Origin: Chromobacterium haemolyticum
GTDB taxonomy: Bacteria; Pseudomonadota; Gammaproteobacteria; Burkholderiales; Chromobacteriaceae
Direction of reading: 5' to 3'
NCBI RefSeq assembly: GCF_002081825.1
Contig: NZ_MUKU01000011.1
Span: 62,001 to 126,000 of the forward strand
Length of the DNA: 64,000 nucleotides
A program made the translations under genes and the position numbers. A model generated the notes under the pieces. That model saw only the letters and a list, made by a program, of their open reading frames with translations, searched no databases and had not been told where the DNA came from. Shown in pieces: positions 1 through 55,426 of the stretch. Position 1 is the first letter of the stretch; the number at the start of each line of letters is the position of its first letter.

Positions 1-413
1 TCGTGGTCAAAGCCCTGCAGATGCAGCATGCCGTGCACTAAGAGGTGGGCGTAATGCGCTTGCAGCGGCTTGTTTTGCTCGGCGGCCTCTTTTTCCACCA
101 CCGGCGCGCACAGTACCAGATCGCCGATCAAGGGCAGGCCGGGCACCGGCTCGCCCTCGTTGAGGGCGAAGCTCAGCACATTGGTGGCGTAGTCCTTGCC
201 GCGGTAGTCGCGGTTCATTTGACGGCCTTCATCCGCGTCCACGATCAGGATGCTGACCTGGGCCTGCTTGACGCCGGCTTGCAGCGCCGCCTGGCTCCAG
301 CGGCGCAAATCTGCGGGCCGCGGCAGCGCGGCGGTTTGGCTGCGCACGTCCAGGCTCAGTTCCAGGCGCGCGGCCAGGCGCGCCAGCAGCGGATTGCGCT
401 TAGCTTTTTTCAT
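1..413 (-). CDS. ybeY: Endoribonuclease YbeY, partial (C-terminus beyond window)
   Basis: Translating the minus strand from the ATG at 411-413 gives [20 protein letters not shown] and stays open to the window edge. The last visible part reads [16 protein letters not shown], the zinc-binding HGxLHLxGYDH signature of YbeY, an RNase needed for 16S rRNA 3' end maturation and 70S quality control. About 137 residues are seen, so only the tail is missing. The start overlaps the end of the upstream phoH gene by 14 bases, the usual phoH-ybeY coupling in proteobacteria. Identity is firm from the motif and the neighbour. Confidence 0.93.
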
Positions 414-1380
414 CTTGCTTGCTTTGGTATTGGTCGTAGGCGTCGACGATTTTCTGCACCAGCGGGTGGCGCACCACGTCGTCGCTCTGGAAATGATGGA
501 AATGGATGCCGCGCACCTTGTCCAGAATGCGCTCCACTTCGACCAGGCCGCTTTTCTGATGGCGGGCCAGGTCGATCTGGGTCACGTCGCCGGTGATCAC
601 CGCTCTGGAGCCGAAGCCGATGCGGGTCAGGAACATCTTCATCTGTTCCGGCGTGGTGTTCTGCGCCTCGTCCAGAATAATGAAGGCGTTGTTCAAGGTG
701 CGGCCGCGCATATAAGCCAGCGGCGCGATCTCGATCAGGTTCTTCTCGAACAGCCGGGTCACGCGGTCAAAGCCCATCAGGTCGTACAGCGCGTCGTAGA
801 GCGGCCGCAGATACGGGTCCACTTTCTGCGCCAGGTCGCCGGGCAGGAAGCCCAGTTTCTCGCCGGCCTCCACCGCCGGGCGCACCAGCACGATGCGTTT
901 GACCGTGTCGCGCTCCATCGCGTCCACCGCGCAGCCCACCGCCAGATAGGTCTTGCCGGTGCCGGCCGGGCCGATGCCGAAGGTGATGTCGTGTTGCTGA
1001 ATGGCTTTGATGTAGTAGCTCTGGCGCGGCGTGCGGCCGCGCAAATCGCCGCGACGGGTCACCAGCACCGGAACGTCTTCGTCTTCGGCGGCCGCCGTGG
1101 CGCCGTTGGGCGCGTGACGGCGCAGTTCCACCAGGCACAGTTGCACGTCGTCTATCGACAGCTCCTGTTTTTCCGCCAGCAGATAGAGCCGGGTCAGCGC
1201 CTCCACCGCGGTTTTGGCCTGTTCACCCTGCACGCGGAAGCTTTCTCCGCGGCGCTGCACGGTCACGTCCAGGCCGGTTTCTATCTGTTTCAGGTGCTCG
1301 TCCAGCGGGCCGCACAGGCGGGCCAGCCGTTCGTTGTCGACAGGGTTGAAGCTGAGGGGTTCGGCGTGCGATGTAGTCAT
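400..1380 (-). CDS. ybeZ: PhoH family ATPase (YbeZ)
   Basis: 326 residues, the normal length for PhoH-like ATPases. The P-loop GPAGTGKT is at residues 137-144 and a Walker B segment IILDEAQN lies near residue 235, followed by a TGD motif. PhoH-like proteins are cytoplasmic ATPases, often with a helicase-like fold, and are paired with the endoribonuclease YbeY, which starts inside the last codons of this gene. The ATG start matches the usual N-terminus ahead of the conserved FNP..N.RL segment. It is likely part of one operon with ybeY and possibly miaB, which lies upstream on the same strand with only the small YciI-like gene between. Confidence 0.93.
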
Positions 1381-39413: not shown

Positions 39414-39823
39414 TTAGCAACGATGCCGGTACGGGTGAATAAAAGGCGATCTTAGGCATGGCGGCCTTAAGAGTCTTTGCTCTAGGGCAAAAAACTAAGG
39501 ATGGCTCGCTTTTTAACTCGGAAAAACTATTGATGCTTCAATGACTTGAGCACTTGCCTCTGCCGGGTATGGCACGCAAACTTTTGATTTTAGTGAGGAT
39601 ATTTTTAGCTAAGCCATTGTGATGCGTTCAAATATGTATTTGGCATTTTTGTGAAAAGAAATCGCGCGGCGAAAGTCCAGGCAAATCCAGGGTAAAGACT
39701 TTTTGCCATCGTTGGCCTTAGCACATTCCTAAAAATCAGCTCCTGTCCATTTGGTCAGATTTCCCGGTTCAGTCCTGCTCTTACAGTGCCCGTGCCGGTA
39801 ACTTGATGATTGGAGAAAATAAA
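39414..39823. other. Divergent upstream region of cviI and the monooxygenase gene
   Basis: 410 bases, markedly AT-rich from 39480 to 39720, with no gene that can be supported. It holds the lux box at 39743-39758, a TACAGT hexamer at 39782-39787 that could be the cviI -10, and GGAGAA at 39812 as ribosome binding site. Confidence 0.6.
39743..39758. promoter_or_regulatory. CviR lux box upstream of cviI
   Basis: CTGTCC-ATTT-GGTCAG fits CTGNCC-N4-GGNCAG, the CviR binding palindrome as I remember it from the C. violaceum vioA promoter; five of six half-site pairs are symmetric. It lies 66 bases before the cviI start. It predicts positive autoinduction of the acyl-homoserine lactone synthase. Confidence 0.75.
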
Positions 39824-40489
39824 ATGGCTCATTTCTTTCCACTGGAGTTGGATAGCTTGCAGATGGAGAAGGTCAACGCGACGTCTTATGAAATTGATTT
39901 GCTGAAGTTCCGCCACCAGGTGTTTCGCGTGCAACTGGGTTGGGTACCGCCGCGGCCGGACGGCCTGGACTTGGATGATTACGACGTGTTCTCCGACAAT
40001 CTGGCGGTGATTGCGCAGCAGCAAGTGGTGGGGTCGGCGCGTTTCACGCCAGGCGATCAGCCCTTCATGATCGAGCGGGAGTTTGCCCGTTTGCTGGCGC
40101 CTGGGGAGCGCATCCGCAAAGGCGCGGGTTGTGGGGAAATCACTCGCTTCGCGGTGGGCAAGACGATTTCCGGTCGTGAGACGAGAGCGATTGCGCGCTT
40201 GTTGTATCTGAGCTTATGGGAGTGGTCGCGCGCCAACGAGGTGCGCTGGCTTTATTTCGTGGTGGAGCCGTCTTTTTATCGGCATCTGTCCCGAATGGGG
40301 TTTCCGATACAGCCGGTGGGCGTGCCAAGACCGCTGGACGGCGGAGTGATGTCGGTTGCGGGCTGCTTTGACTGGGAGCAGGCTGATCCGGAGTTCATCA
40401 AGTCGCTGCGACGGGAAGTCGCTGCGCCAAGAGAGTGCGTCCGTTCCTGGTTGGAATATGACCGTGCGCATGCTCCCGCGTGGGCTTAA
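39824..40489 (+). CDS. cviI: Acyl-homoserine lactone synthase CviI (LuxI family)
   Basis: 221 residues from MAHFFPLELDSLQMEKVNAT; GGAGAA seven bases upstream favours this Met over the one seven codons earlier. LuxI-family conserved residues are visible: Arg30 in LKFRHQVF, the acidic DLDDYDVFSDN, Arg73 in GSARFTP, and Glu105 with Arg108 in CGEITRFAV. It makes an N-acyl-homoserine lactone from SAM and acyl-ACP. It is convergent with cviR and has a lux box in front. Chain length of the signal cannot be read from sequence. Confidence 0.93.
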   Translation: MAHFFPLELDSLQMEKVNATSYEIDLLKFRHQVFRVQLGWVPPRPDGLDLDDYDVFSDNLAVIAQQQVVGSARFTPGDQPFMIEREFARLLAPGERIRKGAGCGEITRFAVGKTISGRETRAIARLLYLSLWEWSRANEVRWLYFVVEPSFYRHLSRMGFPIQPVGVPRPLDGGVMSVAGCFDWEQADPEFIKSLRREVAAPRECVRSWLEYDRAHAPAWA

Positions 40490-40505
40490 GCTGGCCGGCC
40501 CGCAG

Positions 40506-41303
40506 CTAATCGCTGACCTGGAGTCCGGGAGGCGGCAACAAGTGCATGCCCAGCACGATGGCGTGAGTGCGATTGTTGGCGTTCAGCTTGCGGATGACGT
40601 TGGCGACGTGGAACTTCACCGTTCGTTCGCTGATGTCCAGGATGGTGGCGATTTCCCAATTGGTCTTGCCGCGGCTCATCCAGTGGAAAATATCGTATTC
40701 ACGCTGCGATAGCGGCATGGAACTGGGTGTGGCCGGGGCCAGATTGGCGATGCGCACCGCAGCTTGGTGCAAGTGGGGCGTCAGACATTCCAGCATGGCG
40801 ACCAGATTGGGGTCGGAGCTGGCGTCTTTGCCGCTGACGGAGAAAATGCAACCCAGATTATTGCGTTTGGAGGCGGCGCTGAAGGTGACGCCGCTTTCCA
40901 ATCCTACGGTGGCGGCCTCGGCGATGAACTTGCGTTCTTCCTTGCCCTTGGCACGGCTGAAGCGCTCTTGCCACTGCACCGGTCCGCTGCCCAGATGGAT
41001 CTTCAAGATGGGATCGTGCTGGGCGTAGTTTTCCTCCATGTAATGCTTCAGCCATTCCGAGGGATAGCTGACATTCAAGACCCGCTCCAGCCGCTGAATC
41101 TGCTGGTGCTGGTTGATGCGACCCAGCGCCAGCACCATGTGCTCGGAAGGCGCCTGGCTGAGCAACATGTCCAGAAACCCCCTGAGCTCGGCTTCGGTTT
41201 CGATTTGTCCGGCAAGGTGAATCCATTCCAGCAACGTCCATTGCTGACTCGCGGACAAGCCGCTGGGCAGCGGCCGTGCTATCGCGGAATTTGAGATGAC
41301 CAT
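40506..41303 (-). CDS. cviR: Quorum-sensing regulator CviR (LuxR family)
   Basis: 265 residues from MVISNSAIARPLPSGLSASQ. The N-terminal autoinducer-binding domain has the family residues W (TLLEWIHLAGQ, SEWLKHYMEENYAQHDPI) and the C-terminal GerE domain reads MPLSQREYDIFHWMSRGKTN then ISERTVKFHVANVIRKLNA. The C-terminal domain is essentially that of C. violaceum CviR as I remember it, whereas the last residues (LLPPPGLQVSD) and the N-terminal domain differ. The gene ends 16 bases from the cviI stop, convergently. Known CviR proteins activate violacein, chitinase and other genes on AHL binding. Confidence 0.93.
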   Translation of the reverse strand: MVISNSAIARPLPSGLSASQQWTLLEWIHLAGQIETEAELRGFLDMLLSQAPSEHMVLALGRINQHQQIQRLERVLNVSYPSEWLKHYMEENYAQHDPILKIHLGSGPVQWQERFSRAKGKEERKFIAEAATVGLESGVTFSAASKRNNLGCIFSVSGKDASSDPNLVAMLECLTPHLHQAAVRIANLAPATPSSMPLSQREYDIFHWMSRGKTNWEIATILDISERTVKFHVANVIRKLNANNRTHAIVLGMHLLPPPGLQVSD

Positions 41304-41581
41304 GAGCAAATCTTTCTTGATCTTGTGGTTTTACGCTGCTGGATAGTAGCCCACATGCAAAAGGCATGGGAAGCGCTAACTCCTTGTTCTGGTGCCAAGA
41401 ACAGCGACTGTTGCATTCGTCGCCGACATTATAACAAATTGCCTGTCTAAAAATCCGTAAGTAGAAATAATTATATTGATCAATGACTTATTTGGTGCTA
41501 TCTGGCGGGGGGCAAACTAGGCGGGAAGTTGGGGCGTCATAAGGAAGACGCCGGGACAAGCTTGGAAAACTGGACCTTCTG

Positions 41582-42289
41582 TCAGTGTTCCCGATAACTG
41601 AAGTGCTGGAACAAAGGCGCGATCTCTTCTATCAGCTGCGGCGCGGGCCAGCCGGCCGGGGCCGGAGGCAGGGCGAAGGAGGGCGGCGGACGCAGTTGCT
41701 GCCAGTGATAGTCGGCGACGCCCAGCGCCGCCAGCCGCCGCGCCAGCGCGGCCAGTTGGATCTCATTGTGCCAGTGCGGATGTATGCTGCTGCGACATTC
41801 AAAATTACTGTTGTTTTGCAACAAACAGTGCAGCGAGGCCTCGGTCTGCTCGCCGCTGCGGGGCAAGCCGGTTAGCGCCGGATAGGCACCGAAATCGGTT
41901 TTGATGTCCAGGCCGACCCAATCCAGCAACGGCAGCACCCGCCGCAAGCGCTGCGGATACGCGCCACCGGTGTGCAGGCCGGTGGCGAAGCCCAGCGCCC
42001 GGGTCTGTTCCAGCAACGCCGGCAGCGCCGGCTCCTGCAGCGGTTCGCCGCCGGAGAACACCACGCCGTCGAGCAGGCCGGTCCGGCTTTGCAGCCAGCG
42101 CAGGGTGTCCGGCCAGCGGGTTTCGCCGTTTTGGCGCCGCAGCAGGTGGGGATTGTGGCAATAGCCGCAACGCCAGGGGCAGCCGGCGAGAAAGACCACG
42201 GCGCACAGTTTGCCCGGCCAGTCGCAGCTGGAGAACGGCGTCAGCCCGCCGATGCGGGCTGCTGCGGGGTCAGCGGGCGGTGTGTTCAC
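41582..42289 (-). CDS. nrdG: Anaerobic ribonucleotide reductase activase NrdG
   Basis: 235 residues. Radical SAM motif CPWRCGYC with Cys37, Cys41 and Cys44, followed by GVVFSGGEPLQEPAL for SAM binding and LDWVGLDIKTDFGAY. It resembles the NrdG/YjjW type that abstracts hydrogen from the glycine of class III ribonucleotide reductase. Its ATG lies inside the last codons of the 59-residue glycyl radical gene (20-base overlap), so both are translationally coupled and the activase is made next to its target domain. Confidence 0.93.
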   Translation of the reverse strand: MNTPPADPAAARIGGLTPFSSCDWPGKLCAVVFLAGCPWRCGYCHNPHLLRRQNGETRWPDTLRWLQSRTGLLDGVVFSGGEPLQEPALPALLEQTRALGFATGLHTGGAYPQRLRRVLPLLDWVGLDIKTDFGAYPALTGLPRSGEQTEASLHCLLQNNSNFECRSSIHPHWHNEIQLAALARRLAALGVADYHWQQLRPPPSFALPPAPAGWPAPQLIEEIAPLFQHFSYREH

Positions 42290-42449
42290 TGAAGCAGACC
42301 CGTTCGTCGAATTCTCCGCGCTTGCCGATATTGAAAGACTGCACCGGGCGGTGATAACCCATTACGCGGGTCCAGACTTCGCAGCGGGTGCGCTGTTCGT
42401 CGTTGAGCGGAGCGGCGTCTTGGCCGGGGATGCGGGTGGGGGGAGTCAT
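42270..42449 (-). CDS. Separate glycyl radical domain of class III ribonucleotide reductase
   Basis: 59 residues, ATG at 42447-42449 with AAAGGA six to ten bases upstream, TGA at 42270-42272. The core reads CEVWTRVMGYHRPVQSFNIG; RVMGY is the glycyl radical motif RVxGY, placing the radical at Gly31, and the tail GKRGEFDERVCFSEH resembles the end of full-length NrdD. The large NrdD gene upstream stops after its zinc site and lacks this motif. This gene is in the same frame as nrdD, separated by one TAA and seven codons. A detached domain would have to bind NrdD in trans, as YfiD/GrcA does for pyruvate formate-lyase. Confidence 0.85.
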   Translation of the reverse strand: MTPPTRIPGQDAAPLNDEQRTRCEVWTRVMGYHRPVQSFNIGKRGEFDERVCFSEHTAR

Positions 42450-42470
42450 GAGCTTTCCTTTCTTAAGGGC

Positions 42471-44183
42471 TTATGAAGGCTGGCGCGCCAGCAGTTCCGC
42501 GTCGCAGCGCGGGCAGAATTCGTGGTGACCGGACAGATAGCCGTGCTTGGGGCAGATCGAGAAGGTCGGGGTGACCGTGATATAGGGCAGGCGGAAGCGG
42601 GATAGCGAGCGGCGCACCAGTTCGCGGCAGGCGTCGGCGCAGCTGACCGCCTCGGTCATATAAAGGTGCAGCACGGTGCCGCCGGTGTATTTGCGCTGCA
42701 GCTGTTCCTGGCGCTGCAGGGCTTCGAAGGGATCGTCGGTGAAGCCCACCGGCAATTGGCTGGAGTTGGTGTAATAAGGATGAGCGTCGCTGCCGGCTTG
42801 CAAGATGCCGGGATAGCGTTTTCGGTCTTCCTTGGCGAAGCGGTAGGTGGTGCCTTCCGCCGGGGTGGCTTCCAGGTTGTACAGGTGGCCGGTGCTTTCC
42901 TGGAACTCCACCATGCGCTGGCGGATGTGATCCAGGTAGTCGCAGGCTAGTTGGTGGCCCTCGTCGCTGGTGATGTCGATGCGGTCGCCGCTGAAGTTGC
43001 GGATCATTTCATTGATGCCGTTGACGCCTATGGTGCTGAAATGATTGCGCAGCGAGCCCAGGAAGTGACGGGTGTAGGGGTAGAGGCCGTCGTCGATGCG
43101 CGTTTGCACTTCGCCGCGTTTTTTCTCCAGCGCGTCGCGGGACAGTTCCAGCAAGCGGTCGGTTTCGGCCAGCAGCGCGGCGTAGTCGCCGGCAAAGCGG
43201 TGGCCCAGACGCGCGCAGTTGAGGGTGATCACGCCGACGGAGCCGGTTTGCTCGGCGCTGCCGAACAGGCCGTTGCCGCGCTTGAGCAGTTCCCGCAAGT
43301 CCAATTGCAGCCGGCAGCACATACTGCGCACCATCTGCGGCTCCAGGTCGGAGTTCACGAAGTTCTGGAAATAGGGTAGGCCGTATTTGGCGGTCATTTC
43401 GAACAAGAGATCGGTGTTTTCGCCGTGCCAGTCGAAGTCGCGGGTGATGTTGTAGGTGGGGATGGGGAAAGTAAAGGAGCGGCCCTTGGCGTCGCCGGCC
43501 AGCATCACTTCGATGTAGGCGCGGTTGATCATTGCCATTTCGCGCGCGCAATCGCCGTAGCGGAACGGCATTTCCTCTCCGCCCAGCACCGGAATCTGCT
43601 CGGCGACGTCGTCCGGGCAGGTCCAGTCGAAGGTCAGATTGGTGAATGGGGTCTGGGTGCCCCAGCGGCTGGGCACGTTGAGGTTGTAGATCAGTTCCTG
43701 GACGCACTGGCGCACGTCGGCGTAGCTCAGCCCGTCTTTCTTGACGAAGGGAGCCAGGTAGGTGTCGAAGGAACTAAAGGCTTGGGCGCCGGCCCACTCG
43801 TTTTGAAGGGTGCCGAGGAAATTGACGATTTGGCCGCAGGCGGAGGATAGGTGGCGCGGCGGCGCGGATTCCACTTTGCCGGGAATGCCGTTGAAGCCAT
43901 TTTGCAACAGGGTGCGCAGCGACCAGCCGGCGCAGTAGCCGGACAGCATGTCCAGATCGTGGATGTGCAAGTCCCCCTGGCGGTGGGCAATGGCAACTTC
44001 CGGCGCCAGCACCCGCTCCAGCCAGTAATTGGCGGTGAGTTTGCCGGCGATGTTGAGGATCAGGCCGCCCAGGCTGTAGCCCTGGTTGGCGTTGGCGTTG
44101 ACCCGCCAGTCGGCCCGGTCCAGATATTCGTCGATCGCGGAGATGGCATCCACCATGGCGGTGGGCGCGGAAGCTGTGCTCAT
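42471..44183 (-). CDS. nrdD: Anaerobic ribonucleoside-triphosphate reductase NrdD, large part without glycyl radical domain
   Basis: 570 residues. It begins almost directly with the catalytic barrel (DEYLDRADWRVNANANQGYS), so the N-terminal ATP-cone of E. coli NrdD is absent. Active-site Cys candidates are Cys116 (SSACGQIVNF) and Cys289/290 (RSMCCRLQLDL). The C-terminus carries a zinc site C544-x2-H547...C557-x2-C560 and ends nine residues later at TAA, before the RVxGY motif. The missing motif is encoded by the next small gene. It makes dNTPs without oxygen; the upstream Anr/Fnr-type box fits anaerobic induction. Confidence 0.93.
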   Translation of the reverse strand: MSTASAPTAMVDAISAIDEYLDRADWRVNANANQGYSLGGLILNIAGKLTANYWLERVLAPEVAIAHRQGDLHIHDLDMLSGYCAGWSLRTLLQNGFNGIPGKVESAPPRHLSSACGQIVNFLGTLQNEWAGAQAFSSFDTYLAPFVKKDGLSYADVRQCVQELIYNLNVPSRWGTQTPFTNLTFDWTCPDDVAEQIPVLGGEEMPFRYGDCAREMAMINRAYIEVMLAGDAKGRSFTFPIPTYNITRDFDWHGENTDLLFEMTAKYGLPYFQNFVNSDLEPQMVRSMCCRLQLDLRELLKRGNGLFGSAEQTGSVGVITLNCARLGHRFAGDYAALLAETDRLLELSRDALEKKRGEVQTRIDDGLYPYTRHFLGSLRNHFSTIGVNGINEMIRNFSGDRIDITSDEGHQLACDYLDHIRQRMVEFQESTGHLYNLEATPAEGTTYRFAKEDRKRYPGILQAGSDAHPYYTNSSQLPVGFTDDPFEALQRQEQLQRKYTGGTVLHLYMTEAVSCADACRELVRRSLSRFRLPYITVTPTFSICPKHGYLSGHHEFCPRCDAELLARQPS

Positions 44184-44262: not shown

Positions 44263-44276
44263 TTGACGCGGATCAA
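44263..44276. promoter_or_regulatory. Anr/Fnr-type box upstream of nrdD
   Basis: TTGAC-GCGG-ATCAA differs in one base from the Fnr/Anr consensus TTGAT-N4-ATCAA. With the minus-strand TATAGT at 44217-44222 as -10, the box is centred about 60 bases before the likely transcription start, a usual class I activator position. Confidence 0.7.
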
Positions 44277-55214: not shown

Positions 55215-55426
55215 GACATCGCCTTGTTAAATAAACGTCATATTTTAGCGTTATTGGATCCATATTGGTATTGATTGGCATCAATATGCTTTGTAAATAT
55301 CCTGTCGAGATGCAAGCCGCCGCCGATACGTTGCGGCTCGGCATAATCTGCCGCGCGCGGCGCATGCGGTCGATCCGGGCCGCGGATGCTACACTTGGCC
55401 TGATTTCACCACCCGTCGATTCCCTC

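Follow-up and report, generated by a model that had tools for sequence, protein, structure and literature searches.

Class III ribonucleotide reductase (RNR) is described with its radical on the catalytic chain. The nrdD-nrdG locus of Chromobacterium haemolyticum raises the question of whether a separate small protein can carry that radical instead. The locus lies in a stretch of 64,000 nucleotides (hereafter the window; NCBI RefSeq assembly GCF_002081825.1, contig NZ_MUKU01000011.1, positions 62,001 to 126,000 of the forward strand), for which an earlier note had proposed a three-part enzyme made of a NrdD core, a separate glycyl radical domain (GRD) and the activase NrdG. Conservation across many families supports that proposal and, judging from sequence, the operon very probably encodes a three-component class III RNR in which the GRD is a glycyl radical subunit acting in trans. 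Its features, in window positions, are as follows.

42471..44183, minus strand: nrdD core, 570 codons (570 residues), ending in TAA at 42473..42471; barrel, MCCR finger-loop motif and C-terminal zinc site, no ATP-cone, no RVxGY
43311..43322, minus strand: MCCR motif, core residues 288-291, NrdDh4 type (motif described in PMC4493059)
42504..42554, minus strand: core zinc site C544-x2-H-x9-C557-x2-C560, read from the sequence, with a ligand role predicted from the family
42456..42461, minus strand: AAAGGA, Shine-Dalgarno-like site of the GRD gene
42270..42449, minus strand: separate GRD gene, 59 codons (59 residues), ATG at 42449, conserved as a separate open reading frame (ORF) in relatives
42357..42359, minus strand: GGT codon of Gly31, the predicted radical glycine of RVMGY in the GRD protein, a role expected from the NrdD family
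41582..42289, minus strand: nrdG (NrdG2-type activase), 235 codons (235 residues), GTG start at 42289; TIGR02495, 166.8 bits against a cut-off of 131.15

The division of the enzyme can be followed along the Pfam profile NRDD (PF13597): the large protein matched positions 2-528 of 562 (567.7 bits) and the small one positions 532-562 (32.3 bits, cut-off 26.2). The core's own chain stops at profile position 528 and has no C-terminal GRD, and the RVxGY motif was not found in its 570 residues; the radical loop is present in the operon on the small ORF, which contains RCEVWTRVMGYHRPV. The sequence and these matches bear out what the earlier note had said of an nrdD without RVxGY and of a radical motif on a 59-codon ORF with its own AAAGGA and ATG. 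The 20-base overlap of the nrdG start with the end of the GRD gene was confirmed as well, and only the length of the core's tail had to be corrected, from nine residues past the zinc site to ten after its last cysteine, Cys 560.

The large protein scored 1006.7 bits against NF006126 (cut-off 548), the alignment beginning only at position 95, that is, without the N-terminal ATP-cone region. According to the available part of PMC4493059, the NrdDh4 subgroup has MCCR for SCCR and a Phe at the finger-loop tip for the radical Cys. The core carries MCCR, in place of SCCR, at residues 288-291, and GLFGSAEQ from residue 305 is a candidate tip with Phe, placed by eye and not by a subgroup alignment. 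The activase adjoins the GRD gene and is of the NrdG2 type, above the TIGR02495 cut-off. In a Pfam search with E up to 1 the small protein matched only PF13597 and not the Gly_radical domain PF01228 of pyruvate formate-lyase (PFL) type; the genome's single PF01228 match sits in a long frame of 755 residues. Codon changes indicate that the small ORF is under purifying selection: its 34-codon conserved part differs between the window (L001) and L031 by 10 synonymous and no nonsynonymous changes, and changes there were mostly synonymous across 13 pairs. The glycine and the cysteine before it were kept in 204 of 204 parsed cellular GRDs (one truncated GRD was not parsed).

Split and fused genes, a comparison that the earlier note had called for, were tabulated in 399 genomes drawn evenly from the order. 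This NrdD was found above the NF006126 cut-off in 106 of them, with a separate GRD in 99, a fused one in six, all of one family (f37), and one genome not classed (G250, a partial match left out when the other 105 loci were fetched). The separate GRD ORF lay downstream within the fetched stretch in 95 genomes and elsewhere in four, namely on another contig (G116), about 9 kb off (G068), about 2 kb off (G124) or via a contig end (G053), with nrdG alongside in all four. The gene order nrdD-GRD-nrdG seen in the window recurs in relatives. A phylum sample added 11 genomes above the cut-off, eight split and three fused. On plasmids, where the GRD was matched in 29 records and 10 regions were examined, Cupriavidus necator H16 is split, its core (676 residues, no RVxGY), 66-residue GRD and nrdG being annotated as three genes; further split plasmid loci were found in Bradyrhizobium diazoefficiens and Sulfuricurvum kujiense (Campylobacterota). 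Paracoccus denitrificans and C. metallidurans are split without annotation, and Actinomyces oris, Acidiphilium multivorum and Geoalkalibacter subterraneus are fused. In RefSeq the small protein has an annotation of its own, 'nrdD'. When named genomes were scanned with the GRD alignment, at least 581 stretches matched, at least 572 of them encoding a relative. The best 80 loci (77 split, one fused, two with a GRD only) are weighted towards Pseudomonas-like sequences, an effect of the first query row, which belonged to that type. Among them are Pseudomonas nitroreducens, P. fluorescens, Stutzerimonas stutzeri, Halomonas socia, Marinobacter oulmenensis and Thiobacillus thioparus, and P. aeruginosa is absent from those kept.

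Closer to the window, a PF13597 search of 61 genomes of its family matched 54. The genus, with 19 genomes, has five split loci (G000, G011, G014, G015, G022), 13 uninterrupted NrdDs and one genome without NrdD. The 13 uninterrupted proteins are only distantly similar to the window core (phmmer best-stretch E 1e-19 to 8e-9); they belong to another lineage and are therefore not fused versions of the window's gene. Close relatives with an uninterrupted nrdD, which the earlier note had named as a refuting case, exist in 13 of the 19 genomes, all in that other lineage, while the window's lineage is split in five of five. Elsewhere in the family the GRD of the window's lineage is again an ORF of its own; each of the three relative frames and each of the three stop codons occurs, and the spacing ranges from a 4-base overlap to about 200 bases; G044 is an exception with a broken core, and the loci of G053 and G009 are cut by contig ends. 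As a separate observation, two unrelated class III RNR lineages alternate among the species of the genus, 13 fused, five split and none with both; the fused loci are L005, L006, L008, L011-L015, L018-L020, L023 and L027.

How such an enzyme would work can be proposed from its parts. The 570-residue core would supply the barrel, the finger loop and the zinc site, and the 59-residue protein would contribute the radical-carrying glycine in trans. Its hairpin loop would enter the core at the site taken by the covalent C-terminus in other NrdDs, NrdG would abstract a hydrogen from Gly31 of the small protein, and the radical would then move to a core cysteine to start nucleotide reduction. The benefit may be that oxygen cleavage at the glycine ruins just a cheap, replaceable part.

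The docking was modelled with AlphaFold2 by treating the window core and GRD as one chain, with the TAA read as glycine. The model reached a pTM (predicted template modelling score) of 0.85 and a mean pLDDT (predicted local distance difference test) of 81, with GRD blocks at pLDDT 72-89, a finger-loop region down to 42 and the radical hairpin at model residues 602-613. It aligned with the covalent-GRD NrdDs 4u3e, 8p2s, 9d3x and 1h7a at Z 30-34, and end to end with 8p2s_B (Z 34.3, 85..735) and 4u3e_B (Z 33.8, 2..647); in P. copri NrdD the GRD comprises residues 676-739, according to the accessible text of PMC11226230. In this one-chain model the GRD fits the canonical NrdD place.

The plasmid locus of C. 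necator H16 brings in the living cell. The calculated mass of the H16 core is 76.19 kDa. The abstract of Siedow et al. (1999) on H16 nrdDG reportedly gives 76.2 kDa for NrdD, a value that would correspond to the core by itself. The nrdDG genes of H16 were reported as essential for complete denitrification in the portion of PMC2864759 available and, since the H16 locus is split, this points to a split system that works in the cell.

The obvious alternative, also raised in the earlier note, is that stop-codon readthrough or frameshifting joins both ORFs into an ordinary single-chain NrdD and that the separate start is unused. The window itself would permit it, as both its ORFs are in the same frame, separated by a single stop, with 21 bases from the nrdD TAA to the GRD ATG. 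The relatives do not. We pooled 129 separate GRDs, 127 of them with the core at hand (the window is counted twice, as L102, and the unparsed L033 and L099 were dropped). The GRD frame relative to nrdD is random in these 127 (41/43/43), the nrdD stop codons are TGA in 86, TAA in 26 and TAG in 15, and the gaps run from -29 to +376 bases; moreover, some GRDs sit with nrdG on another contig or kilobases from the core (G116, G068, G124). Random frames and displaced GRDs exclude readthrough as a general mechanism, and we consider it very improbable. The start codons chosen by script were ATG in 127 of 129 GRDs, with a Shine-Dalgarno match in 128 of 129, counts that are favoured because the script took the best such match and preferred ATG. 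A sequencing error or a recent local mutation that cut one nrdD in two would also leave a shared frame and a single stop, as seen in the window, G011 and G015, but 99 of the 106 order genomes that have this NrdD, and 77 of the best 80 named loci, share the split arrangement, which makes this explanation scarcely credible. Readthrough, frameshifting, sequencing error and local mutation are all ruled out by the multi-genome data. A different objection is that the small ORF is translated yet acts as a regulator or decoy, the core drawing its radical from elsewhere. We regard this as improbable, though less so than the preceding two, in view of a core without RVxGY, an RVMGY kept in all parsed GRDs, the fit of the GRD to the canonical place in the model and the position of the small ORF between nrdD and nrdG.

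Some observations weigh against an in-trans radical subunit. The one-chain model partly imposes the docking, and its linker (residues 571-590) is of low confidence (pLDDT about 55). Six order genomes and some others have a fused GRD, which shows that the enzyme need not be divided. In G022 (L033) a C run is one base shorter, and the GRD has thereby lost the frame of its ATG; this deletion is either a sequencing error or a true defect.

Two ideas on the history of the split did not hold. Its coupling to loss of the ATP-cone was not borne out: by the core position in the open frame, there is room for a cone in 92 of 126 split rows and none in 34, and in fused rows there is room in eight and none in four, a rough measure as open frames pass true starts (L031, L040 and L044 are probably misplaced). 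A single origin was rejected by the approximately unbiased test of one split clade (p 0.0001). The split label changes eight times on the larger tree (at least five forced by starred branches) and five times on the 59-row tree (at least two); both are quick trees with long branches (L098, L099, L101, L103, L185), which leaves the number and direction of splits and re-fusions unsure.

The split also frees the C-terminus of the core. A close cysteine pair (CC, CxC or similar) follows the zinc site in 32 of 130 split cores, counted per core, and 12 of 129 GRDs have one in their tail; the tail of the window core has none. The freed core C-terminus could act as a redox arm, as in class I and II RNRs. 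Examples of split cores with such a C-terminal pair are L032, L043, L082, L092, L157 and L160.

GRDs of the NrdD type also occur alone. In a GRD profile search, seven of the 399 order genomes had two or three GRDs, all seven with a core of this type as well. The extra GRD had no core or nrdG in the fetched stretch of G136, G164, G301, G386 and G311 (two copies), and lay at a contig start in G412; in G229 (L270, 2079-3974) the second GRD precedes a gene that Pfam assigns to the B12-binding radical SAM proteins, with an nrdG-like piece beyond it, about 2 kb from the GRD. In several cases the neighbours of lone GRDs were phage or mobile-element genes, for neck/tail completion (L267), an endolysin (L269), tail fibre assembly and an integrase (L271), a DUF3363 protein weakly matching relaxases (L268) and, by the copy in a Thiobacillus metagenome-assembled genome, a large tail protein (L253); the neighbours tested at L266 and L265 matched no named family. 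A GRD under the annotation 'nrdD' is also present on two Allochromatium plasmids (L183, L362), where neither a core nor an nrdG is annotated in the stretch shown. IMG/VR yielded 161 stretches coding for relatives, and no NrdD core or NrdG was found in the fetched stretches, several of them short, of the best 80 of these loci. The lone NrdD-type loci comprise L279-L358 from IMG/VR, L253, L266-L269, L271, L272 and the two plasmids. In whole viral records the GRD was the sole PF13597 match in 30 of 30 tested and NrdG2 was matched in none of 26, an absence that applies to the record only, as these records have no completeness estimate and may be fragments. The 25 commonest families among 90 proteins beside viral GRDs include portal, terminase, endolysin, DNA polymerase, helicase and replication initiation proteins. 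No FNR-like box was found in the 300 bases before the start of any of 12 GRDs that are lone or displaced.

We compared 81 lone GRDs (80 viral, one plasmid; 68 distinct). All 81 retain the radical glycine and 80 the cysteine before it; the median local identity to the nearest cellular GRD is 72%. PHROG 4132 ('unknown function') was matched by all eight GRDs tested, six viral, one prophage and the window's own. Most probably, lone GRDs serve host cores as spare radical subunits, although we are less sure of this than of the cellular split. Indirectly, the earlier note's 'detachable, possibly replaceable' domain is supported by the occurrence of lone GRDs in phages, prophages and plasmids, which speaks to carriage of the part by itself and not to its exchange. 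The phage evidence consists of IMG/VR contigs, prophages and PHROG 4132; to be set against it, the annotated isolated phages of INPHARED held no close GRD relative: P0001 gave a single weak match and L301 two, and L351 gave none. Lone phage GRDs might instead inhibit or hijack the host enzyme, and an extra cysteine-rich N-terminus in 11 of the 81 would suit such a role. We think this unlikely, if the least unlikely of the alternatives, given the retained glycine and cysteine and the precedent of phage T4 Y06I, a validated PFL spare part in the text available of PMC8683613. The extra N-terminus is of about 30 residues and zinc-site-like; listed loci are L289, L296, L306, L329, L337, L340, L342, L343 and L354.

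Among known systems, the covalent-GRD NrdD/NrdG enzymes (T. maritima 4u3e, P. copri 8p2s, S. thermophilus 9d3x, phage T4 1h7a) share with the window the core fold, zinc site, RVxGY loop and NrdG, whereas in the window a gene with a start of its own encodes the radical loop apart from the core, and the core has no ATP-cone region. NrdDh4 of RNRdb has MCCR in common with the window core, and the part of PMC4493059 available mentions no separate GRD for NrdDh. YfiD/GrcA of E. coli and the phage-borne Y06I are likewise free glycyl radical domains for a larger enzyme (PMC8683613, available portion). They are of PFL type and restore enzymes already equipped with a GRD, whereas the window's part is of NrdD type and, as the split core has no GRD of its own, presumably obligatory. 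The separate NrdD GRD would work like YfiD and stands outside the YfiD family. NrdJab, the split class II RNR of Pseudomonas aeruginosa, is also a two-polypeptide RNR (from the accessible parts of PMC4520616 and PMC4860495), but of another class, and what is split off in the window is the domain that bears the radical. Phage split nrdD genes have been attributed to introns, inteins or the breaking up of a single gene (PMC3653736, in the text available), and lone phage GRDs are unlike them in that no core was found alongside. Andorfer et al. (2021) counted only the two PFL spare parts as validated and allowed for spare parts of other glycyl radical enzymes (PMC8683613, same portion). The literature searched, whose coverage did not extend to the original 1999 H16 description, did not describe an NrdD GRD made as a protein of its own or NrdD-type GRDs alone in phages. 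No earlier report of a class III RNR whose radical domain acts in trans, as predicted here, was found in that literature.

Two further features and the neighbouring genes complete the window. The FNR-like palindromes, two matches against 0.07 expected, are the following.

44263..44276, strand not assigned: FNR/Anr-like palindrome TTGACgcggATCAA, 93 bases upstream of the nrdD start, with a putative regulatory role
55271-55284: second FNR-like palindrome TTGATTGGCATCAA

The ORFs at 39803-41309 are presumably an acyl-homoserine lactone synthase and a convergent LuxR-type regulator, which they resemble by eye.

The split lineage is common in the Pseudomonadota samples searched and was seen on one Campylobacterota plasmid, and it would place the radical on a cheap separate subunit. 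We give about even chances to the broader proposal that NrdD-type GRDs are exchangeable, consumable radical subunits with which phages, prophages and plasmids keep up or restore the host's anaerobic supply of deoxyribonucleoside triphosphates, with the cysteine pairs of some cores as redox arms. If true, spare parts would for the first time be known for a glycyl radical enzyme besides PFL. The genes make the spare-part question directly testable in a DNA-precursor enzyme. As the lone copies match PHROG 4132, a function can be proposed for that phage protein family, which may represent a new route for phages to support anaerobic DNA synthesis.

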